Part shown: piece by piece, positions 14,425 to 35,786 of the stretch
How the letters are laid out: every line of letters begins with the position of its first letter
How positions within the stretch are numbered: position 1 is the stretch's first letter
DNA from: Nitrobacteraceae bacterium AZCC 1564
GTDB taxonomy: Bacteria > Pseudomonadota > Alphaproteobacteria > Rhizobiales > Xanthobacteraceae
Direction: 5' to 3'
Assembly: GCA_036924835.1 (NCBI GenBank)
Contig: JBAGRR010000001.1
Span: forward strand, 3,673,001 to 3,737,000
DNA length: 64,000 nucleotides
The notes under the pieces: model-generated
Databases searched by the model: none
What the model saw: only the letters and a program-made list of their open reading frames with translations
Told to the model about the DNA's origin: nothing
Made by a program: the position numbers and the translations under genes

Positions 14425-14591
14425 CTAGTGTGGTGGTTCAGAAGTTAGCTCCATTTTTCCCGCGAATTCTTCCAGCGAACTTCTGAACCTGAACCATACT
14501 AGAATTATAAAGTTGCTAGTGTCCTCTCGAATCCAAAGTTCGCTACGGAGCGCGCTGCACGATGAGACGAACTTTGGATTCAGGACACGAG
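14425..14591 (+). repeat. Composite two-hairpin repeat, forward orientation
   Basis: Unit A (14425-14502, ctagtgtgg...ccatactag), a 13-base AT-rich linker (aattataaagttg), then unit B (14516-14591, ctagtgtcc...ggacacgag). The B arms aatccaaagttcg and cgaactttggatt pair well; the A arms are partly decayed. It lies between the converging ends of the PilZ and Gre-like genes, where it could also act as a terminator. Confidence 0.85.
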
Positions 14592-14609
14592 CGACCGACG
14601 TGATCTGCA

Positions 14610-15074
14610 TCAGCGGATCTCGAGAATCTCCAGCTCGTGCTCGCCCGCGCGCACCACCTCTCCGACGCTTTTGCCGAACAGTGCCCGCGCCAGGGGAGCG
14701 ACGTGAGAGATTTTGCCCCTAGCAGGATCCGATTCATCTTCGCCGACAATGCGGAAAGTCTGTTCGCGGCCATCGTCGCGTGCAAGCTTCACGGTGTGGC
14801 CGAAGCGGATGTATTCGGTTGAGTCCGCGTTGTGCACAACATGCGCAGTTGCGCGCCGGGCTTCCCAATAACGCACGTCCCGCGCAGCGCGTGCAAACGC
14901 GTCGCTCTCGTCCTCGTCTTCGGCTTTTGTGAGGGCGTCGTGCGCGCGTGCAAGCTCGGCCTCGATCTGTGCAAGGCCTTCCAGGGTGACATCGTTCGGA
15001 TGCTCGGAGATCGACAGCTCGGGCAAATCGATCGAACCGCTTCCATCCGGCTCCTTGACGAATGCTCTGCTCAT
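14610..15074 (-). CDS. GreA/GreB-like transcription elongation factor
   Basis: 154 residues. A helical hairpin N-terminus (about 40-75) carries an acidic EDEDE patch, and a C-terminal FKBP-like Gre domain contains DESDPARGKISHVAPLARALFGK, matching the family's SP.ARALLG motif. Gre proteins bind the RNA polymerase secondary channel and rescue backtracked complexes. It is divergent from standard GreA, and such extra Gre paralogues are common in rhizobia. ATG 15074 gives MSRAFVKEPDG; the longer frame lacks support. Confidence 0.8.
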   Translation of the reverse strand: MSRAFVKEPDGSGSIDLPELSISEHPNDVTLEGLAQIEAELARAHDALTKAEDEDESDAFARAARDVRYWEARRATAHVVHNADSTEYIRFGHTVKLARDDGREQTFRIVGEDESDPARGKISHVAPLARALFGKSVGEVVRAGEHELEILEIR

Positions 15075-15196
15075 GAGAATCCCTATATTAAAGGGGTTTC
15101 CGGCCTTTTGGACCGCGATGGTTTGACGCAACTTGCGTCGGGCCGGCGAGTTCTTATGTAGGTGAACCTGTGAACAAGGGACGCCCCTGCAACATC

Positions 15197-15727
15197 ATGA
15201 CGGACGACAGCCTTTTTGACCGCACCACCACGCGCCGCGGCGCTCGTCGTCCGCCGATTATCGATCAGGACGGCAACGAGGTACACCCCAATGACGGCGC
15301 GTCCGGCTTCAACTTTAACGGTGCTGGCGCCACATTCACCAGTATCCAGTTCGGCGCTGGCGCTTACTTTGGGCCCCTGACCCGCGAGCAGCGTTTCGCG
15401 CGGATCGATGCTCTGGCGAAGCTCCTAGATGTTGCCTTTATTTTGCCTGGCACCAAGGTTCGGTACGGTATCGACGGCTTGATCGGACTTGTTCCGATTG
15501 TCGGCGATCTGCTCACCACAGCGATCTCGCTCTGGATCGTCCGAGAGGCGAGGGCGCTCGGCGCCCCGAAACATCTGGTCGCGCGAATGCTTGCCAATGT
15601 CGCGCTTGATGGCGTTGTCGGCTTGGTGCCGTTCGCCGGTGACGCATTCGACGTTATGTTCCGCGCCAACATGCGCAACATACGCATTCTCAAACGCTGG
15701 ATGGATAAGCAGCCAAGACAGGTTTGA
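15197..15727 (+). CDS. DUF4112 family membrane protein
   Basis: About 176 residues from ATG 15197; a GTG at 15170 would add nine. The DUF4112 core contains LAKLLDVAFILPGTKVRYGIDGLIGLVPIVGDLLTT segments and a second GLVPFAGDAFDVMFRANMRNI block, each with an amphipathic or membrane helix. The function of the family is unknown. The last codons lie in a short tandem duplication (ccaagacaggtttga twice, 15713-15742), so the C-terminus may have been extended or altered by it. Confidence 0.8.
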   Translation: MTDDSLFDRTTTRRGARRPPIIDQDGNEVHPNDGASGFNFNGAGATFTSIQFGAGAYFGPLTREQRFARIDALAKLLDVAFILPGTKVRYGIDGLIGLVPIVGDLLTTAISLWIVREARALGAPKHLVARMLANVALDGVVGLVPFAGDAFDVMFRANMRNIRILKRWMDKQPRQV

Positions 15728-15825
15728 CCAAGACAGGTTTGAAGAGGCAGACTTGATCAGAATAAGTTTGACCAAGTCAGCCTTTGAAATGCGGGTTTGC
15801 AGAAGAAGATAGATCGAAGATCGGA

Positions 15826-16116
15826 TCAGCCGGCAGCGCGCTGCTTTTCTTCGTCGGCCTCTGCAGGTTCCGGCCGGTTGCGCTGAAGCGGAAATGCATC
15901 GCTTTCATACAGCGTGCGGATGCCGCTCTGGTCGAAACGCGCTTCATCCACTTGGAGATAAGCGCCATTCAAGGAATCGGCAGGAAGTTGTTCGATCGCG
16001 AACTGCACGGCTTCGGCTGCGGTTGAAAACCGGCGGTAGGCAAAACCGGCGCGCTTCTTCTTGCGGATCGCCGCAGGAAAGAGTTCGGCTTCGGTGTTGA
16101 AATTGAACGCAGCCAT
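15826..16116 (-). CDS. Small conserved-type hypothetical protein
   Basis: 96 residues from ATG 16116 (MAAFNFNTEAE). A basic KKKRAGFAYRRFSTAAEAVQFA segment is followed by LQVDEARFD and IRTLYESDAFPL, a layout I associate with small proteins common in Bradyrhizobium-type genomes. No catalytic motif. It is a single-gene unit; function unknown. Confidence 0.6.
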   Translation of the reverse strand: MAAFNFNTEAELFPAAIRKKKRAGFAYRRFSTAAEAVQFAIEQLPADSLNGAYLQVDEARFDQSGIRTLYESDAFPLQRNRPEPAEADEEKQRAAG

Positions 16117-16367
16117 GAGCTCGGCCTTTTGATTGTTGATATGTGGGAACCAACGACATACGGGGCGCGGAAACCGATGCCGCGCGGCGCTGTCACATGC
16201 AAGAACAGCCTCTAATATAGGCCTTTTTTTGCCGATTGCGACCCACGAATGGGGCGTATGATAAACGTGCTGAATAGGCACCTGTCGGCTTAATTATCAC
16301 TTGAAAATCAACGCCATAGCAATAATGCGAGCGGAACGCCTTTTGCGACCCGCTCGCAGGATCGTCT

Positions 16368-16799
16368 TCAGTTGACCGCTACCGGCTGTTCAAGGGTGGA
16401 ACCGCGTTGGGTGTCCGTTTTATCGATCCGCCCCGCAGAGATCGGAACCACCTTCAATTTGGTAGCGTAAGCCTCAACGTGAACATCATCATTCGACGCC
16501 AGCTGGATTTGGCGCACGGGTGCCTGTTCCATCTCTCCGCTGGCGCCACGCCGGACGGAATACTGCCAGGCATTCAGCATGCCATTTTCATGCAGTGCTT
16601 TTTCAACAGCACCGGCATCCTTACCCGTCAGTTGTTTGAGTTCTTTCGCAGTCAGGCCGATGACAATTTCCTGCTTCGGCGTGGTGACCTTGAAGAGCGT
16701 CACTCTGTTAACGGCCAAAGCCGGATGAGAGATCACGGCATCAATCAGCAAACCGGCGAGGCCGAGACCTAGCACCGCCTGGCGCGATGTTGTCGACAT
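16368..16799 (-). CDS. Exported hypothetical protein
   Basis: 143 residues starting MSTTSRQAVLGLGLAGLLID, a probable Sec signal with cleavage near residue 29 (HPALA). The mature part alternates strand-like segments (TLFKVTTPKQEIVIGLTAKELKQLTGK) and ends in a polar tail. No domain recognised. It lies upstream of msrB-msrA in the same direction but 120 bp away. Confidence 0.6.
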   Translation of the reverse strand: MSTTSRQAVLGLGLAGLLIDAVISHPALAVNRVTLFKVTTPKQEIVIGLTAKELKQLTGKDAGAVEKALHENGMLNAWQYSVRRGASGEMEQAPVRQIQLASNDDVHVEAYATKLKVVPISAGRIDKTDTQRGSTLEQPVAVN

Positions 16800-16919
16800 A
16801 GAGATTCCTTGAAGTTTTTTAGCAGCGTTTCTTGTTGTTCGCAGCGCAACATAAATAGGCGCCGCTGCGGCTGATTTAAGCCGCGAGCGACGCATGTCTC
16901 CTCTGCGTTCGTTTAAACG

Positions 16920-17339
16920 TTACTTCGGCAGATGCTTCAGTGCCGCCGAGTTGATGCAGTAACGCAATCCCGTCGGTCCAGGACCGTCGGGAAACACGTG
17001 TCCAAGGTGGCCCTGACATTTCGAACACAGCACTTCGGTTCGCACCATGCCGTGCGAGAAATCGCGCTCCTCGTCGATGCTTCCCTCACTGGCAGGCTGC
17101 GAAAATGCCGGCCAGCCGCAGCCGGAATCGAATTTTGCATCGGATTCGAACAGAGGCTGTCCGCAGCCGGCGCAAACGTAGGTGCCTGGATCAAACGAAT
17201 GATCGTACTCGCCCGTAAACGGCCGCTCGGTCGCTTTCTCGCGCAGGACTGCATACTGCACCGGTGTCAGTTCGCGGCGCCATTCGGCATCCGACTTTTC
17301 GATCTTGCCGGAGCTGGGCTTGGTTTTTGTCTCAGTCAT
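16920..17339 (-). CDS. msrB: Peptide-methionine (R)-S-oxide reductase MsrB
   Basis: Reduces methionine-R-sulfoxide in damaged proteins. 139 residues with two zinc-binding CxxC pairs (Cys56/59 and Cys105/108), the catalytic Cys128 in RYCINSAAL, and Cys74 in GCGWPAF as the likely resolving cysteine. There is no signal peptide, so it acts in the cytosol, unlike its neighbour MsrA. It starts 19 bp after the msrA stop, so the two form an operon. Confidence 0.97.
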
Positions 17340-17358
17340 GCTTGGCTCCCCTTTGTCG

Positions 17359-18075
17359 TCAGTTCGAAGCGCGGGTGTCCTTCACGAGCACCGGCTTCTC
17401 ACGGTAGTTTTCAGCGAAGATCTTTTTCAGATTCTCGATCTTCGGCAAATCGTTGAACGCTATATAGGGTTGGTTCGGGTGCAGCGTGAGGTAGTCCTGA
17501 TGATAATCTTCCGCAGGGTAAAAGGCGCGCAGTGGTTCGATCGTTGTCACGATCTTCTTCTTGTAAACGTTCGCGCCGGTGAGCTGCGCGATATAGGCCT
17601 CGACAACCTTGCGTTCTTGCGGGTCTGAGGTGAACACTGTCGACCGATATTGAGTACCGGTGTCCGGACCCTGGCGATTCAACTGGGTCGGGTCGTGCAC
17701 CACTGAGAAATAGATCTGCAGCAACTTGCCCAGACTGACCTTTTTTGGATCGTAGGTGATCTGCACAGACTCTGCGTGGCCCGTGGCTCCCGTGCTGACC
17801 GTATCGTAATTCGCGCTCTGTGCAGGGCCGCCAGCATAGCCCGAGACCGCTTTCACGACGCCATTGGTGTGTTGATAGACGCCCTGGACGCCCCAGAAGC
17901 AGCCGCCCGCGAGCACAAGCGTCCTCAGGCCGTCGGTTTGCCCAATATCCGATGTTGGCGGTGGAATGATGAAAGCTTCCTCGGAAGCGCGAGACGGCAC
18001 GGCGAACCATGACAGTGCCAGGACGCTTGCGGTGGCAAGGGCGATGGAGGTCCGGCGGAATGAGAAGGAGCGCAT
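17359..18075 (-). CDS. msrA: Peptide-methionine (S)-S-oxide reductase MsrA, exported
   Basis: 238 residues. A Sec signal peptide (residues 1-30, ending VPSRA) precedes the MsrA domain with the catalytic Cys59 in GGCFWG, plus [20 protein letters not shown] and EDYHQDYL motifs. The enzyme would repair methionine-S-sulfoxide in periplasmic proteins. It is first in an operon with msrB, although MsrB itself carries no export signal. Confidence 0.95.
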
Positions 18076-18191
18076 GGGGATTTCCTCAGGCAGTCAGGTC
18101 GTGTTTCGATGCCACAGATACGCGACGAGACCGGTGCCGTTACATTTCCATGCCCACACATGTTTGTGAACCAGGGCGGCGATAGCCCCGG

Positions 18192-18251
18192 CTAGTGGTC
18201 CGATTCTAACGTTCGCATCCCGTCTCGGCGGGCACTCTCGCGAAAGCTGAA
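18192..18251. repeat. Degraded hairpin unit related to the composite repeat
   Basis: Begins ctagtggtccgattctaacgttcgcatcc; the left arm matches that of the unit at 23134 almost base for base, but the right arm (gcgaaagctgaatcagaatga) is heavily mutated. It lies between divergent genes and is probably a dying copy. Confidence 0.6.
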
Positions 18252-18351
18252 TCAGAATGATTGACAGCGGAGAGAATTCTTGGAACAAATAGTGAACATT
18301 GACTCGTGGGCGGAGGCAGTCAGCTTCTGTCGAACCCGGAACGGAGGAGCC

Positions 18352-18555
18352 ATGTTCGAGCCAGCCACGCAAAGTGAGATTGATCGCTATGACCGCGCTG
18401 TCGACAGCGCCATCGCCACCTGTGGCGGCGATCTGCGTGGAGCGATCAAGGCGCTGATCATCGCCAACGAATATCTCGAAAGGGAGTTGGGTCAGGCTCT
18501 GGCTGCGCGCTCGTTCTTGCGAGCGAGCGGGGCGTCGAAGCGCAACGTTGCCTAG
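18352..18555 (+). CDS. Small conserved-type hypothetical protein
   Basis: 67 residues from ATG 18352, behind a strong GGAGGAG ribosome site. Helical, with IDRYDRAVDSAIATCGGDLRGAIKALIIANEYLERE. No known function. Its last four bases overlap the first bases of the composite repeat at 18552, so the repeat supplies its stop codon. Confidence 0.65.
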   Translation: MFEPATQSEIDRYDRAVDSAIATCGGDLRGAIKALIIANEYLERELGQALAARSFLRASGASKRNVA

Positions 18556-18713
18556 TGTGGTGGCAGAGTTCGCCCGATCTTTCCTGCGAGTCCTTCCGGC
18601 GAACTTCTGAACCTGAACCACACTAGAATTATAGATTTACTAGTCCTCCCGAATCCAAAGTCCGCTACGGAGCGCGCTGCACGATGTGGCGGACTTTGGA
18701 TTCGGGACGCTAG
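18552..18713 (+). repeat. Composite two-hairpin repeat, forward orientation
   Basis: Unit A (18552-18626, ctagtgtggtgg...ccacactag), linker aattatagattta, then unit B (18640-18713, ctagtcctcccgaatccaaag...gctag). The B arms read tccaaagtccgc and gcggactttgga: compared with the copy at 14516, a T-to-C change in one arm is matched by A-to-G in the other. It sits between converging genes. Confidence 0.85.
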
Positions 18714-18735
18714 TTGAGGGTTGCGACCGAGGTGT

Positions 18736-19179
18736 CTAGGCGCCGGCAGGCTGCCCCAATACGGCATGCTCCTCATATTGCGGCAGCTCATCGGTAATCC
18801 TGAACCAGGGGGCCTTGGAGCCAACGAAGATGTGCACGCTGGGCCGGATCGATGGATCGTCGACAAGCGTCCCCATCGGAACGTGAACGAAGGCGCCTTC
18901 GCGAACGACTGAATAAAGAAGTGAGCCGCATACTTCGCAATGCGCATTGTGACTGTCTTTGTCGCCGAAGCGTTTCAGCCGATCCTCACCTTTGGCCACG
19001 CGCAGTTTCTCGCGTGCAATGCCGGCAAACGGTTTGAATGCTGAACCGGTCGTCCGCCGGCAATTCGAACAATGGCAGTTCGCGGCGTAAAGAAATTCAT
19101 CGGCCACCGCGTAGTGGACGGCACCGCAAAGACATTGTCCCGCGATCATGCGTTTGCTTGTTTCCTTCCTGTCCGCCAT
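18736..19179 (-). CDS. GFA-family zinc protein
   Basis: 147 residues of the glutathione-dependent formaldehyde-activating (GFA/CENP-V) fold. Cysteines sit at 16 and 18 (QCLCGAVHY), 35, 37 and 40 (CHCSNCRR), and 81 and 84 (HCEVCGS), the usual two zinc sites. Family members bind small thiol adducts, but most lack proven activity. A GGGAGAA ribosome site supports ATG 19179. It ends beside the composite repeat. Confidence 0.9.
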   Translation of the reverse strand: MADRKETSKRMIAGQCLCGAVHYAVADEFLYAANCHCSNCRRTTGSAFKPFAGIAREKLRVAKGEDRLKRFGDKDSHNAHCEVCGSLLYSVVREGAFVHVPMGTLVDDPSIRPSVHIFVGSKAPWFRITDELPQYEEHAVLGQPAGA

Positions 19180-19214
19180 TGGCTTCTCCCTTTACAGTGT
19201 ATGCCAGGACAGCG

Positions 19215-20540
19215 TTATTTCATGAGCTCCTTTGCCACCGCCATGTACATGGGAAGGCTGACGGGATCATTCGCGGCATTCGCGGCTATTGGATGCGATG
19301 CATAACGCACAATCACCATTTCGGCTTTCGGATCGATGTAGATGCTTTGGCCATAGATGCCGCGGGCCATATACGCATGATGCTCATTGTGGGTGATCCA
19401 CCACATGTCGCGATAGGACCAGCCCTTGAGCGTGGCATAACCCGCTTTCGCAAACTGATCCTTGTCGCCGCCTTTCTCGATGTCGGCGATAGCGGCTTCG
19501 GGAATGATCTGTTGGCGGTTGAACTTGCCATGGTTGCGCATCATCTCGCCGAAGCGTGCCAGGTCGCGGAGGGTGGTGTTCAATCCGCCGCCGCCCGACT
19601 CCGTGCCGATACTATCGACCGTGAAGTAAGCGTCACGTTCTGCGCCGAGCTTCGACCAGATGGTGCTCGACAGGAGATTGGCCATCGATTGGCCGCTCGC
19701 ACGTTTGACAATCCATGCCAGAACTTCCGCGTTTGCGGTCTTGTAGGCGAAGGCTTCGCCATGCTTGCCTTCTTTTTTCAGCGTCACAAGGAAATCGTAG
19801 AAGGTGTGCGGCCCGTCGTAATTTGGTGCGCTTGGTACCATTCCCCCAGCCCGCGCGTAATCGAACACCTCGGACTTCGGGTCTGAATAGTTCTCCGAGA
19901 ATTTTACGCCGATGGTCATGTCCATCACCTGACGTACGGTCGCATCGCCATACGCCGAATACTTTAGTTCTGGAACGTATTTTGTCACAGGGGATGCCGG
20001 ATCGAGCTTGCCCTCCGCCGCGAGCATCGCTGCCAGTGTGCCGACGAAAGATTTTGTGACCGAGAACGCAATGTGCGGCCGCTGCGGGCTGCCTTCGCCG
20101 AAATATTTCTCGAAGACGATCTGGCCGCGGTGAAGCACCAGAATGCCGTCGGTATAGGTCAGGGCAAGAGCGTCATTGAAGGTAATTGATTTGCCGTCGA
20201 GGGTTGTGATCGGAACGTTTGACAGGGCACGCTCGGCGCGTGGCAAAGGCGCTGTAGCTATTTCACCACGCGAAACGTTGGCGGTTGGTATCAGCTCGCG
20301 AATGTGGCTGAAAGACCAGCGCGTAAACGGAAAGCGCGAACTTGAACCGTCGCTGAAGCGGATGATTTTGTCCGGTGGGGGCGGGAATCCCTGCATCACG
20401 CCAATCGCTTTCGGATCAGTCTCGGCCGCGGTGGGAAGCGGCTTCGTCTGGGGCGCTTGTGCATGCGCTGAGATTGCGATTGCTATGAGAGCAAGCAATC
20501 CTAACGCGCCGCCCGTGAGCGCGATGATGCGGAGCATCAT
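19215..20540 (-). CDS. Serine hydrolase of the beta-lactamase/esterase family
   Basis: 441 residues with an N-terminal signal or anchor helix (1-27, ending AHA). The class C beta-lactamase-like fold shows Ser160-Val-Thr-Lys163 (SxxK nucleophile), Tyr266 as the likely general base (FAYKTAN), and GGGGLNTTLRDLARFGEMM, typical of 6-aminohexanoate-dimer hydrolase-like and esterase members. It is probably periplasmic. The natural substrate is unknown; homologues act on amides, esters or D-amino acid peptides. Confidence 0.88.
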   Translation of the reverse strand: MMLRIIALTGGALGLLALIAIAISAHAQAPQTKPLPTAAETDPKAIGVMQGFPPPPDKIIRFSDGSSSRFPFTRWSFSHIRELIPTANVSRGEIATAPLPRAERALSNVPITTLDGKSITFNDALALTYTDGILVLHRGQIVFEKYFGEGSPQRPHIAFSVTKSFVGTLAAMLAAEGKLDPASPVTKYVPELKYSAYGDATVRQVMDMTIGVKFSENYSDPKSEVFDYARAGGMVPSAPNYDGPHTFYDFLVTLKKEGKHGEAFAYKTANAEVLAWIVKRASGQSMANLLSSTIWSKLGAERDAYFTVDSIGTESGGGGLNTTLRDLARFGEMMRNHGKFNRQQIIPEAAIADIEKGGDKDQFAKAGYATLKGWSYRDMWWITHNEHHAYMARGIYGQSIYIDPKAEMVIVRYASHPIAANAANDPVSLPMYMAVAKELMK

Positions 20541-20649
20541 TTGAATGTTTCCCCGGTTTCTGCGCGTGTTATCTGTCGTAATGCGGTAATCAGGCAGCCT
20601 ATCCGAGCGGTACGCGGCAAACCAGAGTAGTCAGCACGATGGTGCAACA

Positions 20650-20679
20650 AAAAACCGCGAGATAGATCTCGCGGTTTTT
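20650..20679. terminator. Rho-independent terminator downstream of the BA14K gene
   Basis: Arms aaaaaccgcgaga and tctcgcggttttt around a four-base loop give a perfect stem with flanking A and T runs. It serves the minus-strand BA14K gene, which ends at 20717, and lies ahead of the serine hydrolase gene. Confidence 0.9.
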
Positions 20680-20716
20680 GGCGATCTATGCGCAATGAAG
20701 CGCGTTTGTCAGATTT

Positions 20717-21091: not shown

Positions 21092-21239
21092 ATGTGCTCC
21101 TTTTTCTTGGAATTGGTACGTGGATGGATTTGAGCCTTCGCACAACGAAAGTGGTGTGATTATGCCACAGGCTTGATAATACGCGGATTAAAAATCGGTA
21201 TCAAATGTCGTGCTTTGAAATGTGGATTATTTACTCTTT

Positions 21240-22946
21240 CTATTCTGTGGGCTTGTAGCCGTGCGCGCGGATTGCGCGGCGATCTTTCACGACACCGATG
21301 ACCACGCCCATGCGCTCGATTGTCGCAATCGTTGTGCCATCGAGGTTACGATCGCAGTTCATGTGTGTCGGTGCGATATAAAAGTCTGCGTAGCGCCAAT
21401 CCCACATCTTGATCCAGCGCAGATTGGGTCGTGCGTATTCTTCATAAGAAACCCGTTCACCGCACACGGCGACCCGATAGTTGTGCGTCTTGGCGGTCTC
21501 AGGCTCCGTGCGGTCCAGGAAGTCGTGCAACTCCTCGACAGCCTCTGGCATGATGTTGACCCAATAATCGGTGACAAAGCGTCGTGACGCACCCTCCAGC
21601 CCGCCGACAAGCTGATTGTAGTAAAGGTATTCATGCGGATGGAGCTCGACGAGCTTGGTCGCTGTCTTGGCATAACAGGCTGCAATAAAGACAAGGCCGC
21701 CTATCATCGCGCTACGATGCCAGCGTTTCAGTAATCCGATGCCGTTGCTCAGGCCGATGCCGGCCAGAATTGCGATGGGCGGAAATACGAACAGGAAGTG
21801 CCGACAGCCATCCAGCGCAGGACCTTGCGCGATCACCTGGCACAGCACCGGAAAGAAAGCCGTGAATGCAATCAGACCGATATCGCGGCGGCGTCTGCTG
21901 TTATCGGCTTTATCAGATGCAAGGGTGGGGACTGCGGTCGCCGCTGCCATTAAGACCGCTGCGCCGAGCGTCAGCAACGGAAGCCTGATCGCGATATAGG
22001 TCGGAATGTAGTAGCGGGGAACATCGGCCATCTCGTACATCCGGCCGAAAATGATCGTGCGGATATGATAGTGGAAATCGCCGAATGAAATGAGGCCGCG
22101 TATCGGATTGAGCGGAGAGAGCGCTGCGTAAGGCCATACCGTGATCATGATGACGTAAGCGACGACGAGGCCGGGCAAAAGCCACAACATCGATGTCAGG
22201 ATGAATTGCGCCCGCTCTTTCCAATATCCGGTGATCGGTCTTGGCGTGTTGATCAGAATGGCGAGGCCGGCATATCCAAAGAGCAGGAGGCTCAGCGATC
22301 TGATGCCGAGCGCCGCACCCGTCATAACGCCAAGACCGATCACGTGACGCATGCGCGGGATCGGCAAGTCGCGCGTGGCGCGGATCAGGAAGTAGGTCGC
22401 ACCAGCCATGAACGTGGCCAGCGGAATGCCTTTTGTGTGATTGAACATACCGCCATACCATGAGCCGCACAACGCAAGTGCTGTAATGGCAAAGAATCCC
22501 GCGCGCGGACCGGCAATCAGCCGTGCAGTCGTGCCGGTGGCGGCGATACCGCCGATGCCGATCAGGGCGCACAGCAGGTGGCGAAGCTCATAGATATCGA
22601 CAGGGAGGATGTTGCCGAGCAGAACTGCGACAACGTCGAACAGTCCGCCATAAAGATAGAGGTTGTCAAACTTGAACAGCGACTGGTCGGTGAACCCGCT
22701 TTTGTAATAAGCGATGATCAGTTCGCCATAGCGGTTTTGCAGGCCTTCATCATTGGAGACGGCATAGTCCTGGAACGTCCAAAAGGCCATTGCCAGCAGG
22801 GCCACCAGTGCGCCTACTGAGGCGAGATCGTAGACATCGCGCGTAGCGATCCAGTTCAGCCACTGTCTTAGCTGTGCCCGGAAAACAGCAAGCAAAGACC
22901 GTCGCGGCTCGGATTGTCCGAGCTGTCCGGTAATGGAATCGCTCAT
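21240..22946 (-). CDS. Polytopic glycosyltransferase-like (GT-C/ArnT-like) membrane protein
   Basis: 568 residues with about 10-12 membrane helices. The first periplasmic loop, after helix 1, contains SNDEGLQNRYGE; a paired acidic motif at this place is typical of GT-C transferases that use polyprenyl-phosphate sugars. The C-terminal 110 residues form a soluble domain. A role in glycosylating lipid or surface polymers is inferred from the fold alone. ATG 22946 was chosen over an upstream extension. No sugar-pathway neighbours are present. Confidence 0.75.
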   Translation of the reverse strand: MSDSITGQLGQSEPRRSLLAVFRAQLRQWLNWIATRDVYDLASVGALVALLAMAFWTFQDYAVSNDEGLQNRYGELIIAYYKSGFTDQSLFKFDNLYLYGGLFDVVAVLLGNILPVDIYELRHLLCALIGIGGIAATGTTARLIAGPRAGFFAITALALCGSWYGGMFNHTKGIPLATFMAGATYFLIRATRDLPIPRMRHVIGLGVMTGAALGIRSLSLLLFGYAGLAILINTPRPITGYWKERAQFILTSMLWLLPGLVVAYVIMITVWPYAALSPLNPIRGLISFGDFHYHIRTIIFGRMYEMADVPRYYIPTYIAIRLPLLTLGAAVLMAAATAVPTLASDKADNSRRRRDIGLIAFTAFFPVLCQVIAQGPALDGCRHFLFVFPPIAILAGIGLSNGIGLLKRWHRSAMIGGLVFIAACYAKTATKLVELHPHEYLYYNQLVGGLEGASRRFVTDYWVNIMPEAVEELHDFLDRTEPETAKTHNYRVAVCGERVSYEEYARPNLRWIKMWDWRYADFYIAPTHMNCDRNLDGTTIATIERMGVVIGVVKDRRAIRAHGYKPTE

Positions 22947-23133
22947 GCCAGTGATGCCCCTTGTCCCCTCGTCGCACGAGCGACGTATCCCCCTGCCGGC
23001 ATCTTTGGCCAGCTTGGGGAAAACCATAGGTGGGGAACTAAGGACCGCTCAAGTAAATTGCGTTTTGCGTTGCGGGAGGCGGCATAAGAAAAAGGTATTA
23101 GAGCGCGCTTTCGAGCGAAGTGGCTACCTCGTA

Positions 23134-23294
23134 GTCCGATTCTAACGTTCGCCCCCGTCTCGGTGGGCATTTTTGCGAACGTTAGAATCAAAGGACCGCG
23201 AGCAGATATATAATTCGAGTGGAGCTCAAGGATTTGACGTTCGCATCGCGAACTCGCGGCAAGCAGGGTGCGAACGTCAAATCCGCTCCACTCG
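23134..23294 (-). repeat. Composite two-hairpin repeat inserted in another repeat, reverse orientation
   Basis: A B-like unit (23134-23196, gtccgattctaacgttcgc paired with gcgaacgttagaatc..aaaggac), an AT-rich linker ending gatatataatt, and an A-like unit (23216-23294, cgagtggagc...gctccactcg with inner arms atttgacgttcgc and gcgaacgtcaaat). On the left it is preceded by tcgagcgaagtggctacc and on the right followed by ttcgcgtgaagaaatgcg. These are the two halves of the dispersed repeat seen uninterrupted at about 23326-23386, so the composite sits inside an older repeat. Confidence 0.85.
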
Positions 23295-23390
23295 TTCGCG
23301 TGAAGAAATGCGTCAAAACAAGAATCCAGAGCGTTTCCAAGCGAAGTGGCTACCGGTTCGCGTGAAGAAAACGCGTCAAAACAAGAACTG
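23295..23390 (+). repeat. Dispersed repeat with GCGTGAAGAAA-type core
   Basis: Two copies in a row. The first (from 23295) is the right half of an interrupted element: ttcgcgtgaagaaatgcg, then tcaaaacaagaa. The second (about 23326-23386) is whole: gagcgtttccaagcgaagt, ggctaccggttcgcgtgaag, then aaaacgcgtcaaaacaagaa. The left half of the first copy lies at 23099-23129. I recognise this as a common dispersed repeat of Bradyrhizobium-type genomes. A small palindrome (ttcggttctg and cagaaccgaa) follows at about 23395-23422. Confidence 0.75.
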
Positions 23391-24663: not shown

Positions 24664-24828
24664 CTAGTGTCCGATTCCGAAGTTCGCATCATTCCGCGGC
24701 ACCTTTGTTTGCGAACTTCGGATTCGAAGGACACTAGCAAGCTATTGTTCTAGTGTGGCTTTGGTTCAGAAGTCCGCATTCCAGACTCGCTGCACGAATG
24801 ATGCGGACTTCTGAACCGCCGCACTGGC
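24664..24828 (-). repeat. Composite two-hairpin repeat, reverse orientation
   Basis: Unit B (24664-24737), linker caagctattgtt, unit A (24750-24828). The whole element is the reverse complement of the copy at 35623-35786, including the linker, which differs at a single base. It lies between the divergent helicase gene and a small membrane protein gene. Confidence 0.9.
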
Positions 24829-26383: not shown

Positions 26384-26399
26384 AGGGTAGGGGAAACAC

Positions 26400-26930: not shown

Positions 26931-26939
26931 AAACGCCGG

Positions 26940-27107
26940 CTAGTGTTCCGGTTCTGACATTCGTATCACGTCGCAGCAGGCACTTTACGAATGTCAGAAC
27001 CAAAGGAACACTAGCGGAAATATATGAATCTAGTGCGGTTTTGGATCTGACGTTCGTATCACGGACTCGAGGTTAATACGGATACGAACGTCAGATCCAC
27101 CGCACTA
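26940..27107 (-). repeat. Composite two-hairpin repeat, reverse orientation
   Basis: Unit B (26940-27014, ctagtgttcc...ggaacactag), linker cggaaatatatgaat, unit A (27030-27107, ctagtgcgg...ccgcactag). Inner arms are ttctgacattcgta and tacgaatgtcagaa, and gatctgacgttcgtatc and gatacgaacgtcagatc. These differ from other copies but stay fully paired. It lies between the converging SRPBCC and flbD genes. Confidence 0.9.
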
Positions 27108-27146
27108 GGATAGTTCCTGCGCCGGCGTTCATTGAGTCGTTCGTGA

Positions 27147-28523: not shown

Positions 28524-28583
28524 GGTATACTCCTGTTGATGTCCCGCACCATTCGCGGCGGCAGGTCGTTAATTCAGAATGAC

Positions 28584-29572: not shown

Positions 29573-30699
29573 CAATACACCAGCTCGTCGTCAGCACGAT
29601 TTTTCTGCAACATGATTTCACCCTTGGCGGCGAGATCCTTGGCGAGATTAACCAGAAGTGCCTGGGCTTCATCGACATCGCGCAACCGGACGGGACCAGC
29701 TGCCGCCATGTCGTCGGTCAGCATCTTGGCGGCGCGGCTCGACATATTGCCGAGGAAGAAGCCGCGAACCGTCTCATTAGCGCCTTTCAATGCGATACCC
29801 AGCTTGTCCTTGTCGACGTGTCGCATCAGCGTCTGAGCTGAGCCGGCATCGAGTTTCACCAGATCGTCGAAGGTGAACATCAGCGCCTTGATGCGTTCGG
29901 CAGATTCGCGATTATCCTCTTCCAGAGAGGTGAGGAAGCGAGTTTCGGTTTGGCGATCGAAGTTGTTGAAGATTTCGGCCATCACTTCATGGGCATCGCG
30001 ACGGCGTGTTTGCGACAGGTTCGACATGAACTCAACGCGCAGGGTCTGCTCGATACGCTCGACGACTTCCTTCTGGACCGCTTCCATCTTGAGCATACGG
30101 CCGACGACATCGAGTGCCATATCTTCCGGCAGGATCGCCAGCACGCGCGCGGCATGTTCAGGTTTTAGCTTCGAAAGCACGACGGCGATGGTCTGCGGAT
30201 ATTCATTCTTGAGGTAGTTGGCGAGAACCTCTTCCTGCACATTGGAAAGCTTCTCCCACATATTGCGGCCGACAGGGCCGCGGATTTCGTCCATGATGCC
30301 GGAGACGCGATCGGCAGGGAGATATTGATGCAACAGACGTTCGGTTGCGTCGAAGTTGCCCATGAGCGCGCCAGAGGCCGACATACGTGACACGAATTCC
30401 AGCAGCAGATCTTCAACAACTTCCGCTTCGACGGTGCCGAGGTTTGCCATCACTCCGGACAGCTCGCGCACCTCATCGTCATGCAGGAGGGACCAGACTT
30501 TGGCTCCGTATTTTTCGCCAAGCGCCAGCATCATAATGGCGGCACGCTTGGGCCCCGGCAGAGGGACGCTTTGGGCGCGGCCGCTCTGACGACTTGCTAG
30601 GGTTGCGACAACGCCGGTGATGTCATTCGTGTTGGCCGCGGCTTCTTCGGCGGAAGGTTGCGCCGTTGGACTGTTGGTCAGAGCTGGAGGTGTTGCCAT
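29572..30699 (-). CDS. fliG: Flagellar motor switch protein FliG
   Basis: 375 residues, slightly longer than typical because of a 45-residue N-terminal tail. Three FliG domains follow: N ([14 protein letters not shown]), middle ([25 protein letters not shown] with the EHPQ-like patch) and C ([30 protein letters not shown]), the last carrying the charged residues that meet the stator. It couples torque to the MS ring. It starts 6 bp after the fliF stop in one operon. Confidence 0.97.
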
Positions 30700-30705
30700 G
30701 TCGGG

Positions 30706-32295
30706 TTATGCCGGTTCTGCGAGCCATTGACGGATGATGGAGACGGTCTCGTTCGGATTGCGCTCGGCGAGTTCGCCGACACGTTGTACGGATTGAGCGT
30801 GGACCTGGCCTTGAACCTGCGCGACGTCGATCATTGTATTCGCGACAATTTGGGCGGCTTCCGGTTCGGCGGACACCAGCAGCGGAGCAGGCTCTGGCGC
30901 AGGATCAGCGGCTAGTACGCGCTTGAGCAACGGGCGCACCACCATGAACACGACAACCAGGCCGAGGATCATCATCACGCCGAGCTCGACGAAATACATG
31001 ATGTCGTCTTTGGTGAACTGGAACATCCCAAGGAAACCTTTCGGCTCCTGAGACGGAATGATGGACGGGCCTTCTGCGAATCTCAGGTTGACGACCTCAA
31101 CCTGATCGCCACGCTTCTGATCGAACCCGATTGCCGAACGGACCAAGGTGCCGATGCGATCGAGTTCTTCTTTCGAGCGCGCTGCGTAGACGATGTCACC
31201 CTTGTCGTTCTTGCTGTAACTGCCGTCGACGAGAACTGCGACAGAGATACGGTTGACGCGGCCAGCTTCGATGACTTCGGTCTTGGTGACGCGGGAAATC
31301 TCGTAGTTGTTGATTTCCTCGCTCTTCTTGCTCTGGTCTTTCGCTGTCGATCCTGAATTCTGCCCTTGGTTGCCGGGGAGTTCGTTGTTGACAGTAACTT
31401 GGCCATCCCGATTGTCCGAAGTCTGCGACGCTTCTTCGCGCGACTGGCTCGAACGTAGCACGCGGCCCTCCGGATCGAATTTGTCAGAGGTCTGCGTGAT
31501 CTTGTTGTAGTCAAAGTCGGCGGAGAGCTGGACACGGGCACGACCGGCGCCGACAACCGACGAGACAATTGCCTCGACTTGATCGCGCAAGCGCTTTTCA
31601 TAGGCCGAACGACGTTCATCACCGCCGGCACCATCGCCGGCGCCGTCTTCGGCGGCGCCATTGGCCAGCAATTGTCCCGTTTCGTCGACGATGGAGACAC
31701 GCTGGGCCTTCATGCCGTTAACCGCGGAGGCGACGATGTGTCGGATCGCGCGAACCTGTTGGGGTTCGAGCGCTCCGCGGACGCGCAACACGATGGAAGC
31801 TGAAGGCTCTGGCGTTTCGCGCGAGAACAGCGGCCGCTCAGGCAGCACGAGGTGGACACGTGCGGCCTGGATACGATCGATGGCCTTGATGGTGCGGGCC
31901 AGTTCGCCTTCGAGGGCGCGGAGATGATTGATATTCTGGACGAAGCTGGTGGAGCCAAGGGCATCGGACTTGTCAAAAATCTCGTAACCGATGCCACCGC
32001 CTTTGGGCAGGCCGCCTTCGGCCAGCTTCATGCGAAGCCGGGTGACCTTGTCCTTCGGCACCATGATGACGGCGCCGTCGTTCTTCATTTCGTAGGGGAT
32101 GTTTTGGCGTTCGAGATCCTTGATGATCGCCGAGGAGTCTTCGTAGCTCAGATCTGTGAAGAGGGTCATCATGGGCGGCGTCGTGACGCGCATGATGACG
32201 AAACCGAAGAAGCCAATGAGAGCCAGCGTCACGGCGCCCATCGCTGCCATGCGTGCTGCGCCCAGCCTTTTCAAAAATTCCAATAGACCTTGCAA
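30706..32295 (-). CDS. fliF: Flagellar MS-ring protein FliF
   Basis: 529 residues. The first membrane helix is at about 18-37 (TLALIGFFGFVIM). The YscJ/FliF ring-building domain (about 45-220) carries LAEGGLPKGGGIGYEIFDKSDALG. A low-complexity linker is followed by a second membrane helix (about 432-455, LGVMMILGLVVVFMVV) and the cytoplasmic FliG-binding tail ending TVSIIRQWLAEPA. The start is TTG 32295 (no ATG fits). It is the first gene of the five-gene flagellar run. A TGGCACG lies about 35 bases upstream but the matching -12 element is poor. Confidence 0.96.
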   Translation of the reverse strand: MQGLLEFLKRLGAARMAAMGAVTLALIGFFGFVIMRVTTPPMMTLFTDLSYEDSSAIIKDLERQNIPYEMKNDGAVIMVPKDKVTRLRMKLAEGGLPKGGGIGYEIFDKSDALGSTSFVQNINHLRALEGELARTIKAIDRIQAARVHLVLPERPLFSRETPEPSASIVLRVRGALEPQQVRAIRHIVASAVNGMKAQRVSIVDETGQLLANGAAEDGAGDGAGGDERRSAYEKRLRDQVEAIVSSVVGAGRARVQLSADFDYNKITQTSDKFDPEGRVLRSSQSREEASQTSDNRDGQVTVNNELPGNQGQNSGSTAKDQSKKSEEINNYEISRVTKTEVIEAGRVNRISVAVLVDGSYSKNDKGDIVYAARSKEELDRIGTLVRSAIGFDQKRGDQVEVVNLRFAEGPSIIPSQEPKGFLGMFQFTKDDIMYFVELGVMMILGLVVVFMVVRPLLKRVLAADPAPEPAPLLVSAEPEAAQIVANTMIDVAQVQGQVHAQSVQRVGELAERNPNETVSIIRQWLAEPA

Positions 32296-32366
32296 GACTC
32301 AGCCCGCCCCAAGATTCGACACCACGTGCCACTGGGCAGAATTTGCCTAGATATGGTTTCCATATG

Positions 32367-32382
32367 GTTAACGGCGGTTAAC
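32367..32382. promoter_or_regulatory. Paired GTTAAC motifs between fliF and sciP
   Basis: GTTAAC occurs twice with a four-base gap, 72 bases upstream of the fliF start. CtrA sites in alphaproteobacteria read TTAA-N7-TTAA; here the spacing is N6, so this is at best a non-canonical site. The location beside sciP (a CtrA partner) and a flagellar operon is the reason to note it. Confidence 0.3.
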
Positions 32383-32486
32383 AGCTCCTACGCGTTTCTT
32401 AAAGTTGGTCACCGGCAACATCACGGGAAGGGTAGGCTTTTACTGATTTCAGCCTGTGCTGGGTGTTTCGCGCGGCCCAATAACAT

Positions 32487-32518
32487 CGAAGCCGGCTTCA
32501 GATCTGAAGCCGGCTTCG
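32487..32518. terminator. Perfect palindrome, likely terminator of sciP
   Basis: Arms gaagccggcttcag and ctgaagccggcttc around a central AT make a perfect stem. It lies just beyond the sciP stop codon and about 190 bases upstream of the fliF start. T-runs are weak, so it may act as a terminator or stabilise the 3' end. Confidence 0.6.
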
Positions 32519-32548
32519 AAACACTAACGAAAGGTAAATCTCTGGAGG

Positions 32549-32824
32549 TTACTGGCGATACTGCTGGATGCGGGTGGTGCGCAATCCGGCCAGACCATGC
32601 TGGTCGATGGAGAATTGCCAGGACAGGAATTCGTCAACGGTCAGCGTGTAACGGCTGCAGGCTTCTTCGAGGGACAACAGGCCACCGCGAACAGCGGCCA
32701 CGACCTCGGCTTTGCGACGGATGACCCATCGCTTGGTTCCGGGCGCGGGAAGATCCGCAATCGTTAACGGACTTCCATCGGGCCCGATGACGTACTTCAC
32801 CCTCGGGCGGTGGGGTTCTGTCAT
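32549..32824 (-). CDS. sciP: CtrA inhibitor SciP (DUF1153)
   Basis: 91 residues, a compact HTH-like protein with the very conserved core RVKYVIGPDGSPLTIADLP, KRWVIRRKAEVVAAVRGGLL and SLEEACSRYTLTVDEFLSWQ. In Caulobacter SciP binds CtrA and blocks transcription of CtrA targets, including flagellar and cell-cycle genes. The full core is present. It stands alone between the fliF and fliK-flgD operons, fitting a link between cell cycle and motility. Confidence 0.95.
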   Translation of the reverse strand: MTEPHRPRVKYVIGPDGSPLTIADLPAPGTKRWVIRRKAEVVAAVRGGLLSLEEACSRYTLTVDEFLSWQFSIDQHGLAGLRTTRIQQYRQ

Positions 32825-32939
32825 GGTGTACTCACAAACTCGAAAACAACTGAACTCGTGAGCTGACGTTACCTTCCGCCGCTTAAAATTTGCCTAAACC
32901 CAAGCCTAGAATACGATTCTCCTTCGATTTGTCTCAAAA

Positions 32940-32973
32940 CCGTCAACCTGACCCGCTTGAGGCAGGTTGACGG
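32940..32973 (-). terminator. Terminator after flgD
   Basis: Arms ccgtcaacctg and caggttgacgg around a 12-base loop, followed on the minus strand by GTTTTGAG. It lies 20 bases past the flgD stop. Confidence 0.75.
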
Positions 32974-32993
32974 AGAGTTCACCGACGGACTGA

Positions 32994-33716
32994 TCAGCTA
33001 CTGGTGCCGCCGCTGCTGTTCGGAGCGACCACGCGCTTGATCTGATCTGTTGTGTAGTTTTGGCCGCCAATCGAAAGCAAAGCGGGACTTGCAGTGAGAT
33101 CGACGGAATCAACCAGTCCCTGCACCTCGGTTGGGATGGCTACGTTGTTGCCGTTGCTGTCCTTGGCTGTGATCGTCATCTTATAGTTGCCGGTGGGCCA
33201 TTGCGTGCCGTCATTGCCCTTGCCGTCCCACACAAAGCTGAAGTCGCCGCCGTTGATATTCATGTTGCCGGAATAGGCGGTGCGCCCCGATGCATCTTGG
33301 ATCGTGATTGTCGCTTCGACGTCCTTCGGAGCCGTCAGATTCCAGGTCGCATGTCCATCGAACATTGCCGTGCTGCCGTCGACGGAGACGGTCTGGCCGA
33401 CATAGACCAGCGCCTGAGTCGATTGCGCCGACTTCTCGATGTTGACGAGCGAGGTGAGCTGATCGTTAGTCTTGAGCTGCTGTTCGACCTGCGCGAACTG
33501 CACGAGCTGTTGGGTGAATTGATTGGTATCCAGCGGATCGAGCGGGTTCTGGTTCTGTAGCTGCGTAGTCAACAGGGTCAGAAACGATTGGAAGTTATCT
33601 GCAATGCCGCCTGCGCCACCAGCGCCCGAGCTGGTGTCGGTCGTCGTCGGCGGCTTGGTCGACACGCCCGATTGAGGGACCGGTGCCTGATTTGGAGCTG
33701 TGGAATCGACGGCCAT
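32994..33716 (-). CDS. flgD: Flagellar hook assembly protein FlgD
   Basis: 240 residues. The N-terminal FlgD motif FLTLLTTQLQNQNPLDPLD..FTQQLVQFAQVEQQ (about 44-80) serves as the export and capping region. Then come an FnIII/tudor-like hybrid domain (DGHATWNLTAPKDVEATITI, DGKGNDGTQWPTGNYKMTI) and a Gly/Ser-rich end. It caps the growing hook. It starts 11 bp after fliK, so the two share a transcript. Confidence 0.96.
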   Translation of the reverse strand: MAVDSTAPNQAPVPQSGVSTKPPTTTDTSSGAGGAGGIADNFQSFLTLLTTQLQNQNPLDPLDTNQFTQQLVQFAQVEQQLKTNDQLTSLVNIEKSAQSTQALVYVGQTVSVDGSTAMFDGHATWNLTAPKDVEATITIQDASGRTAYSGNMNINGGDFSFVWDGKGNDGTQWPTGNYKMTITAKDSNGNNVAIPTEVQGLVDSVDLTASPALLSIGGQNYTTDQIKRVVAPNSSGGTSS

Positions 33717-33727
33717 ATTCTGTCTCC

Positions 33728-35419
33728 TTAAACCCTGATATCGACGCCGCCGCTCGACCCGAGCATGCGGCCATAATTGCGTCCTGCGGCTGGCACAGGC
33801 ACCGTATTTTCTTCTGCAATGACAAGACGCCGCGACTGGCGGCCCGAACCGTTGTCGTTTTGCTGACCCGACGATGATTGATCACGCAGGCTGAATTGCA
33901 GACCGCCGTCTCCAGTTTTCAGGCCGGCATCTTCCAGTGCCTGCTGCAATTGCGGTGCATCACGGCGCAGCATGTCGAGCGTTGCAGGCCGTTCGACCGT
34001 GAGGTGCGACGTCACCTGACCGTGCTTGTCAACGTCAAGGCGGACATCGATACGCCCTAGTTCAGCGGGATCGAGGCGGATTTCAAAGCGGCTGTTGCCG
34101 CCGGCCGCACGCAGCGCGATATCGGCGGCCAGCCCATCCAGAGGAACTGGTGCGTCGCCAGCGAGAACCGTTGCCGTCAACTGCGGCGCTGGCATCGCAG
34201 CGACATTGGGGACGCTCAGCTGAAGCGGCTGCTGTGGCTGATTATTTGCTAACAGAACACTCGGATCGGGCTGCAGCGGCTGGACGGCTGGAGCGGCAGT
34301 CGATAGGCGATGCTCGGTCGCCGCCGGTGTATGCGAGGCCATCGAAGCCTTGGATGAATCCTTGCCGTCTGATGAAGCCGCCGCCGTGTCCTGCTCGGTA
34401 TCAGTCTTGTCAGCCCCGGTCTTGTCAGGCACGGGCTTTTCTGAGCCGGCCGCCGCAGCGTCCACTGTCGTTTTCTCGTGCGCCGATTCTGTCGCACGTT
34501 CTGGGGAGGCGGGCGCCGTCGATGACTCGATCACTTGCTTGTCACCATCCTTGCCGGATGCAGCGGTCTTTGCCGATGTCTCGGTGGCTTTGACCTTCCC
34601 AGCTCCCTGCGCCTGTTGCGCCGTGGTCGCGGTTGGGATCGCGGCAGTGGCGACCTCTGCTGCCTCCGGGGTCGAAAGCTTCGTGACGTCCGAGGCAGAT
34701 GCCGCGGTCGATTTCGGGTCGGTCGAAGAAGTGGCAGTGTCCGCACTTACGGAGGTATCGCTTACGAACGCATCAATGGCAGCCGACGGATCGTTTTTTT
34801 CTGTCCCCTGGGGCGCCGTAGTCGCCGGTGTTCCTGCGATGGCGTCGATTGCCAAGGGGGCTGCGTTCGCATCGTCCGTGGAAGGCGATGCTGAATCGGT
34901 GGCTACGGGGACAACGACCGCAACGGCATTGGGATCAACTGCTGCAGCAGATGGTATTGGCGTCGACGCGTCGGTTTCACCGTCTTTCGTCTGTTCATCT
35001 CCCTTCTTGCCGTCGGGCGATACTTTGCCGGTTCCGTCTCCCTTGGCGGGGCCCTGGTTCGTCGCAGCTGTTTTGTCGCTCTGAGCGGCCTGATCAGTCC
35101 CTTTGTTATCGGCGAGGGATGAGTCCTTCGCATCCTTTGGAGCTGGGGGCGTTTGAGTCGAGTCGCTTTTTGTCGTGTTTGGCGCGTCGTGCCGGTCGGT
35201 GTCGCGCGCGGCGGTATCCGTACGCTGCGGCTGGGCAGGCTGCGGAACCCCACGGGTGTCTCGTGAAGCGGGTGCAGCACTGTCGATCAGCGAGGCAAAG
35301 CCATCCGATGGCGCTGGTGCGGAATGGGGCTGCTTTGATCGCGCAGCGTAATTCGGCGCGGACGCGGCAATTTCATGAGTGGCACTGAACACGGGCGACC
35401 TTTCACAGGTGAGGTTCAT
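33728..35419 (-). CDS. fliK: Flagellar hook-length control protein FliK
   Basis: About 563 residues (554 if the GTG at 35392 is used). A very long Ala/Thr/Asp/Ser-rich N-terminal region (about 20-420) of ruler type is followed by the FliK C-terminal domain (about 450-530) with LDPAELGRIDVRLDV, VERPATLDMLRRDAPQLQQAL and GLQFSLRD. It sets hook length and switches export specificity. A sigma-54 promoter at 35429-35443 would start transcription right at the ATG, so the GTG codon, preceded by GAAAGG, may be the true start. Confidence 0.92.
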   Translation of the reverse strand: MNLTCERSPVFSATHEIAASAPNYAARSKQPHSAPAPSDGFASLIDSAAPASRDTRGVPQPAQPQRTDTAARDTDRHDAPNTTKSDSTQTPPAPKDAKDSSLADNKGTDQAAQSDKTAATNQGPAKGDGTGKVSPDGKKGDEQTKDGETDASTPIPSAAAVDPNAVAVVVPVATDSASPSTDDANAAPLAIDAIAGTPATTAPQGTEKNDPSAAIDAFVSDTSVSADTATSSTDPKSTAASASDVTKLSTPEAAEVATAAIPTATTAQQAQGAGKVKATETSAKTAASGKDGDKQVIESSTAPASPERATESAHEKTTVDAAAAGSEKPVPDKTGADKTDTEQDTAAASSDGKDSSKASMASHTPAATEHRLSTAAPAVQPLQPDPSVLLANNQPQQPLQLSVPNVAAMPAPQLTATVLAGDAPVPLDGLAADIALRAAGGNSRFEIRLDPAELGRIDVRLDVDKHGQVTSHLTVERPATLDMLRRDAPQLQQALEDAGLKTGDGGLQFSLRDQSSSGQQNDNGSGRQSRRLVIAEENTVPVPAAGRNYGRMLGSSGGVDIRV

Positions 35420-35428
35420 TCTTGTTCA

Positions 35429-35443
35429 GCAAGGACCGGGCCA
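35429..35443 (-). promoter_or_regulatory. Sigma-54 promoter upstream of fliK-flgD
   Basis: On the minus strand the bases read TGGCCCGGTCCTTGC, which fits the -24/-12 consensus TGGCACGNNNNTTGC at every fixed position except one (C for A). The -24 GG and -12 GC have the required spacing. The expected transcription start is about 12 bases beyond, near 35417. FlbD in this window is the obvious activator. Confidence 0.7.
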
Positions 35444-35622
35444 ACGGTGTATTTTCCAAAAACGGATGTCTTCTCAATAACTTGATTGGTGGGCTGAGCA
35501 TTGGCGGAGGGGCGAGAACAGGCGCTTTTCTGCCCGCTCGGCAAGTTTTGCCCCTTAGAACGGATAAAGGCCGCCTGCGATTGCTTCGCGGGGGAGCGGA
35601 CTATAAATAAAGGCCAGCACCC
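35444..35622. other. Spacer between fliK and the composite repeat
   Basis: No supported gene. A 62-codon open frame here (35422-35610) has no ribosome site or family and overlaps the sigma-54 promoter, so it is not called. Confidence 0.5.
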
Positions 35623-35786
35623 CTAGTGTGGCGGTTCAGAAGTCCGCATATTCGTGCGGCGAGTCCGGGATGCGGACTTCTGAACCAAAGCCACACTAGA
35701 ACAATAACTTGCTAGGGTCCTTCGATTCCGAAGTTCGCAGAAGAACGTGCAGCGGAATGATGCGAACTTCGGAATCGGGACCCTAG
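35623..35786 (+). repeat. Composite two-hairpin repeat, forward orientation (best-kept copy)
   Basis: Unit A (35623-35699): ctagtgtggc and gccacactag outer arms, ggttcagaagtccgcat and atgcggacttctgaacc inner arms, AAA bulge on the 3' side. Linker aacaataacttg. Unit B (35712-35786): ctagggtcc and ggaccctag outer arms, gattccgaagttcgc and gcgaacttcggaatc inner arms, with the extra bases on the 5' side. It lies between the divergent fliK and mnmA genes. Confidence 0.92.

Follow-up and report, generated by a model that had tools for sequence, protein, structure and literature searches.

What is the composite two-hairpin repeat that recurs in a 64,000-nucleotide stretch of the Nitrobacteraceae bacterium AZCC 1564 genome (the window; positions 3673001-3737000 of a single-contig chromosome of 5,994,409 bp, or 5.99 Mb), and by what means has it spread? 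A preliminary description of the window listed six copies with a fixed plan and proposed a polar, composite, non-autonomous mobile unit. We find it likely that the repeat is a non-autonomous mobile DNA element of ~165 bp, spreading as one hairpin A-linker-hairpin B unit and inserting at CTAG. This is supported by the fixed order of the parts and the co-inheritance of their types, by sites that are occupied in one genome and unoccupied in another, by CTAG or near-CTAG at insertions including those nested in other units, by intergenic scatter, by compensatory stem changes and by near-identical copies in other genomes.

The unit is non-coding and has the form CTAG-[TG..hairpin A..CA]-CTAG-linker-CTAG-[TG..hairpin B..CA]-CTAG. 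Hairpins A and B are ~70-80 nt each with CTAG at both feet, and they are homologous and mirror-symmetric about the linker. Unless the whole genome is named, counts given here and below refer to a sample made up of the window and 80 further stretches (1.657 Mb, 28% of the genome). Between the CTAGs the linker usually measures 13 nt: it does so in 104 of the 139 full copies of this sample, and G094, a relative rich in units, has this length in 37 of 40. The one-sided bulge reported for each hairpin is real and lies on the linker-facing arm (the 3' arm in A, the 5' arm in B); of 54 units of this genome retained by strict fold filtering, 44 have both bulges linker-proximal, as do 32 of 40 in G094. 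All six listed copies were recovered from the sequence, by folding and with a profile built from them, and the copies at 24664 and 35623 are indeed reverse complements (91% over 129 nt ungapped; 90% over bases 4-168 of 168). Two details needed revision (Table 1): the copy given as starting at 23134 begins at 23128, and of the two supposed solo or decayed copies, the one at 18192 is a half-hairpin remnant, whereas the one at 662 belongs to a seventh full copy, of which it forms the B half.

Hairpin A, linker and hairpin B are inherited as one unit. When A types and B types were clustered separately over 139 copies, the two sets of clusters agreed with an adjusted mutual information of 0.65 (best of 200 shuffles, 0.05), and distances between A hairpins correlated with those between B hairpins at 0.58 (best of 200 permutations, 0.08). 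Independent A and B hairpins with dissimilar linkers, which the preliminary description named as the outcome that would speak against a composite unit, were not what we found, though solo hairpins do occur: the 231 non-overlapping nhmmer matches in the sample comprise 139 full, 33 A-only, 45 B-only and 14 other matches, together 1.8% of the sampled sequence.

Extrapolation to the whole genome gives ~500 full copies from the entire sample, or ~760 from its systematic part alone (20 x 20 kb, 51 full). A single 168-base query returned 447 candidates in the genome, and the 40 that were scored are near full length with 88-100% identity. A pattern of the architecture, which an intact unit matches on both strands, gave 298 and 275 matches on the two strands of the whole genome, against one on each for the backwards control. 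By crude gene calls, 134 of the 139 full copies lie between genes, three in genes and two at sample edges; random placements fell between genes in 978 of 5000 cases and in genes in 3978. CTAG itself is scarce, with 1340 sites in the sample against 6075 expected from base composition and 1697 by a Markov estimate; 503 of these sites belong to this repeat family, 343 lie elsewhere between genes and 494 in genes. No strand bias of units relative to replication was seen (58/57 and 13/11), and a mirror-symmetric unit would show none anyway. Separately, the segment-wise GC skew of the genome reverses near 0.3 Mb and again near 3.0 Mb, and GGGCAGGG shows a strand bias, which suggests a terminus and an origin.

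Insertion sites were compared among syntenic Afipia loci, whose aligned stretches are ~72-90% identical; for the aminotransferase gene of the window, the twelve best relative loci share 82-89% identity and are mostly from Afipia, which places the organism in or near that genus (Alphaproteobacteria, Hyphomicrobiales). At five places a unit is present in one locus and absent from others. After the aminotransferase gene, L063 is unoccupied and reads AAGGG-CTAG-TTGCC, L062 reads AAGAG-CTAG-[unit]-CTAG-GACC and L061 reads CTGG-[unit]-CTAG. Three further unoccupied sites read CCAG in L061 and L062 (unit in L060), CAAG in L061 and L062 (unit in L063) and CTGG in L061 (unit in L060). Single letter changes in an old target are expected because the compared stretches have themselves diverged to this extent. 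Nested insertions agree: nine units lie within other units at their inner CTAGs, with an exact CTAG at the 5' junction in five, at the 3' junction in seven and at both in three, the remaining junctions being one letter off; the other half of the host is absent in one of the nine. All nine share the orientation of their host unit, for which we offer no explanation. Among 83 copies with complete ends, 63 read CTAGTG...CACTAG, and no strong base preference was seen outside CTAG. For the surroundings of copies 18552 and 26940, no clean unoccupied site was found. L063 also has units close to the positions of window copies 23128 and 35623; the sites do not coincide exactly, and we claim no orthology.

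Stem pairing was assessed in 40 of 51 listed copies. For the two-hairpin structure 96.0% of cells are paired and 27 of 40 pairs show changes on both sides, a number reached by 0 of 500 shuffles, with 240 both-side-changed cells against 80 in shuffles; slid controls pair at 28-44%, a comparison that is tilted towards the unslid structure, which was derived from the same alignment. The alternative of a single long A-B hairpin pairs at 83.6%, and 11 of its 30 pairs show changes on both sides, a number that 174 of 500 shuffles reach. Selection on RNA should favour G-T clearly, and we therefore read the pairing as kept in DNA: over 139 copies G-T stands at 89 against A-C at 80 once two subfamily-wide wobble pairs, chosen after the data had been seen, are left out. 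Maintenance of the stems in DNA rather than in RNA is thus moderately supported.

A reading without mobility would take the hairpins for structured RNA parts, terminators or stabilisers, under selection at gene ends. The intergenic position, the strength of the hairpins and an excess of G-T over A-C in the total count fit such parts, but the occupied and unoccupied sites, notably L063 against L061 and L062, do not. Nor does the use of every gap type, as 69 of the 139 full copies lie in tandem, 39 in divergent and 26 in convergent gaps. An Rfam scan of the window gave one tRNA only, so that no curated RNA family matches the unit there. We regard this reading as extremely unlikely.

Several results weigh against a mobile DNA unit that targets CTAG. 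An exact CTAG is present at only one of the five unoccupied sites. At the site that reads CTGG in L061, L064 reads CATT, and the fifth site (unit in L063) is TCAG or CAGG in L060 and AGGG in L061, hardly CTAG-like. The long A-B hairpin beats all shuffles in both-side-changed cells (59 against 34) and in covariation score. Counted over all pairs in 139 copies, G-T exceeds A-C (181 against 85), so an RNA role is possible by that test, and the arms of a hairpin could also be kept alike by template switching. Finally, no autonomous copy or parent insertion sequence (IS) with the ends of the unit was found in the 1.657 Mb of this genome or in 400 kb of G094, and no mobilising gene was identified in the searched sequence.

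On the mechanism that we favour, the unit would insert at CTAG, leaving CTAG at each end and TG...CA inside, and a protein encoded elsewhere would move the whole unit in trans. That protein would probably read the two mirror-image hairpins, with their bulges facing the linker, as folded single-stranded DNA. Recognition of folded hairpins is preferred over recognition of ends because conservation is as strict in the inner arms and the linker-facing bulges as it is at the ends. The apparent target duplication does not decide between mechanisms, since a single-strand enzyme cleaving at CTAG on the left and on the right leaves the same pattern.

The transposase with matching ends that the preliminary description suggested was sought in part of the genome and not found. 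Self-comparison of the 1.657 Mb yielded nine repeat pairs longer than 500 bp at >=85% identity, none flanked by unit ends on both sides. One 510-bp repeat (96%; offsets 21199-21698 and 18500-19009 from 5100001) stops exactly at the start of a unit in one of its two copies, with no clean unoccupied site. Ten open reading frames (ORFs) near or between units, scanned from 56 listed intervals most of whose ORFs lay outside the scan, are ordinary genes. Among ORFs of 39 relative loci no family recurs, except where near-identical loci come from one genome or from close ones, and in weak pairs of 22-32%. An A-gene-B arrangement in G094 was considered as an autonomous copy and rejected, as the gene belongs to an IS3-family element inserted in a unit's linker (L240, G094 C1 ~122447-123728; two ORFs, AGC on both sides); units thus serve as IS targets.

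A classic miniature inverted-repeat transposable element (MITE) is one alternative, which is compatible with mobility and names the mover: a DDE transposase would read the outer ends alone and duplicate a 4-bp CTAG (or 2-bp TA) target. The general definition fits, the unit being short and non-coding with inverted ends and an apparent target duplication, although an exact CTAG stands at only one unoccupied site. IS630 reportedly prefers TA in CTAG. This account would explain CTAG at both ends with one CTAG-like word at unoccupied sites, as well as the TG...CA ends, and it has a precedent in MITEPsy1 of Pseudomonas syringae, which duplicates CTAG or YTAA (PMC3189936). It does not explain the strict conservation of inner arms and bulges, which end recognition alone does not need. 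Two DDE_Tnp_1 matches in this genome bear on it. One is an IS5-family element (L232 1152-2649; NF033581, above cut-off) whose ends are CAGGCTGTTGAAGAAGTC and which is flanked by CTAG and CTAA, so that this genome does carry a transposase whose target resembles CTAG; the other (L233 1337-2110) is a fragment of the same IS that abuts a decayed unit end and whose own right end bears CTAG. However, the IS5-family ends resemble the 278 unit ends no better than shuffled sequences do, the mean score being reached by 38 of 300 shuffles and the maximum by 180 of 300. Otherwise this genome holds a short DDE_3 (IS630-type) fragment with no unit in its locus and a weak NF033577 (IS481-type) fragment far below cut-off. 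A DDE-driven MITE is accordingly a possible explanation, though we incline against it.

A REPIN proper, that is, a doublet of repetitive extragenic palindromic (REP) sequences moved as single-stranded hairpins by a Y1 (HUH) transposase of the REP-associated tyrosine transposase (RAYT) or IS200 kind, matches the unit in its two inverted hairpins, their bulges and the foot tetranucleotide, and CTAG could supply both the CT cleavage dinucleotide and the AG guide. The foot is nevertheless CTAG on both sides rather than GTAG, and the hairpins of ~70-80 nt exceed 20-50 nt. The Y1 family PF01797 has no match in this genome. Among 26 carriers of the unit, picked mainly for high unit counts, ten have a match and 16, including all five tested genomes of this genus, have none; to our knowledge, RAYT-type enzymes are the only family that moves such double-palindrome repeats, and those 16 genomes thus carry the unit with no detectable gene of that family. 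In the ten genomes, four matches are strong and short and six are weaker, RAYT-like or partial, and four further matches in these genomes lie outside the ten loci that were fetched. A unit lies near the gene in two of the fetched loci, both of the IS200 type, and the RAYT-like ones have no unit within ~1.5 kb. A Y1 profile built from eight of the ten loci found nothing in the sample of this genome. The lack of a RAYT today is compatible with a past one, as Escherichia coli genomes that lack the gene are reported to contain REPINs (PMC8049555) and REPtrons may have been lost by deletion (PMC3733652). We consider a REPIN proper unlikely.

Of the four strong short matches, the two that were tested (G084 and G668) are IS200/IS605 transposases, and an IS200-type tnpA stands beside a unit in two of the four genomes with such a match (L315 1187-1360; L317 1-210). 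The G084 element lies directly against a unit's outer end (so the IS end in L315), and the distance from the gene to the end of a unit is ~120 bp in G668. This adjacency is curious; both kinds of element prefer intergenic DNA.

Several back-to-back units have one CTAG in common, and head-to-tail tandem units with a period of ~163 and one shared CTAG lie at offset 80180-80666 of g3500001 in this genome and at G094 C1 357701-358190, where they are nearly identical. A site-specific recombinase that integrates circular units at CTAG, the shared core mimicking a target duplication as with integron attC hairpins, would fit such tandems and the folded hairpins with unpaired bases, yet the flanks show no preference beyond CTAG. 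We judge this explanation to be quite improbable.

The unit is found well beyond this genome. A DNA query matched 33 of 61 genomes, namely this one, 27 of 28 others of the genus, five of eight from other genera of the family (three of these by one weak match each) and none of 24 from other families. The architecture pattern, which is blind to stem sequence, found the plan combined with other stem sequences and matched 104 of 296 family genomes in 28 of 47 genera, where low counts may be chance as the backwards control gives 0-4 per strand. At least ten forward matches occur in 32 of the 296 genomes, from 13 genera, most of all in G094 (354), this genome (298) and G103 (174). In a sample of the order 36 of 397 genomes match, and six outside the family have at least ten forward matches (G383, G448, G489, G567, G594 and G668). 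The lone match in G048 is not palindromic. Some genera with many sampled genomes have almost no units, and we take the unit to be patchily distributed, having spread in separate bursts. G668 gave 168 candidate B hairpins, of which 40 were scored and 30 are identical over the full 80 bases; this draft assembly has 110 contigs, many ending inside a unit, and may overstate the identity of copies. G668 contigs ending at hairpin A were considered as IS ends and dismissed, since those that are long enough continue into linker and B. Plasmid and phage collections gave no match with one query each.

These results allow a broader proposal, which we put forward tentatively and hold to be rather doubtful as a whole: an order-wide REPIN-like family spreading without RAYT, in which a novel or extremely divergent hairpin-reading recombinase would act in trans on the pair of large bulged hairpins and insert it at CTAG, the stems diverging by paired changes while the architecture stays fixed. 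The unit itself would extend the known bacterial double-palindrome repeats by a class in which each foot carries a CTAG tag. The near-identical copies in G668 and G094 make a search for the mover and tests of hairpin DNA as substrate practical.

Table 1. Units, remnant and unoccupied site in the window (window positions)
Feature	Position	Strand	Details
Full copy (seventh)	572-737	+	Divergent hairpin A from 572, linker, hairpin B 662-737; nhmmer 1-167 of 167, E 1.4e-25; B half folded
Full copy	14425-14591	+	Hairpin A 14425-14502, linker, hairpin B 14516-14591; final CTAG is CGAG
Fragment, part of hairpin B only	18192-18255	-	nhmmer match 103-167
Full copy	18552-18713	+	Hairpin A 18552-18626, linker, hairpin B 18640-18713; fold, nhmmer
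Full copy, another subfamily (GGATTTGAC / GATTCTAAC stems)	23128-23294	-	Fold, nhmmer
Full copy	24664-24827	-	Reads hairpin B' 24664-24737, linker, hairpin A' 24750-24827 on the plus strand; reverse-complementary to the 35623 copy
Full copy, third subfamily	26940-27108	-	B' 26940-27014, linker, A' 27030-27108
Unoccupied site	32270-32310		Unit in L060 (16719-16878), none in L061/L062; no clear CTAG at the window site
Full copy	35623-35786	+	Hairpin A 35623-35699, linker, hairpin B 35712-35786

Two further observations concern the window. The copy at 26940 sits where relatives carry a GCCGGC...GCCGGC inverted repeat, perhaps a terminator, with CTAG in its loop in one relative (L067). A 300-nt direct repeat (11118-11417 and 12523-12822, 71% identity) lies within neighbouring ORFs, which are perhaps paralogous genes.

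The element is apparently undescribed: we found no paper describing it in a search that left most subscription literature aside, and it could be reported under RIME-type elements. RIME1 of rhizobia is ~110 bp long with two large palindromes. In the same bacterial family as the unit, Br-REP1 and Br-REP2 of Bradyrhizobium (PMC5082802) are likewise palindromic intergenic repeats, and a larger form of Br-REP2 is said there to occur in Afipia, with data not shown; however, by eye, their printed consensus sequences share no stem with the unit, and section 15 of that paper describes no CTAG-bounded two-hairpin plan. Neither Afipia nor Hyphomicrobiales nor CTAG is mentioned in the main text of the RepRanger paper. 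GTAG- and CGTC-tagged palindromes, including GTAG-14 of Bradyrhizobium (PMC3733652), resemble the unit in being tagged and often forming head-to-head dimers, and the CGTC repeats likewise lack a transposase, whereas their stems are mostly 6-13 bp and the string CTAG is absent from the main text, figures aside.

MITEPsy1 (PMC3189936) shares with the unit its short, non-coding form, inverted ends and duplicated CTAG or YTAA; unlike it, the unit has two separate hairpins, conserved inner arms and bulges, hundreds of copies and no parent IS that we found. REPINs and bacterial interspersed mosaic elements (BIMEs; PMC3116915, PMC8266576) have in common with it two inverted palindromes, a foot tetranucleotide, a spacer, intergenic location, replication as doublets, singlet remnants and tandem clusters and, in E. 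coli, the bulge; E. coli TnpA-REP requires GTAG, the bulge and a CT cleavage site (PMC8266576). The unit departs from them in its longer hairpins, in CTAG at both feet rather than one GTAG, in CTAG on both sides of the insertion and in that no associated RAYT was found. Set against the features that define REPINs, two inverted palindromes replicating as one unit are present; a GTAG or CGTC tag on a hairpin of 20-50 nt is not, and a cognate RAYT was found neither in this genome nor in 16 of 26 carriers, while the fetched RAYT-like loci contain no unit, its past presence being possible. The unit thus departs from REPINs in its tag, in the size of its hairpins and in having no cognate RAYT that we found, but it works like a REPIN and falls within the general definition of a MITE.

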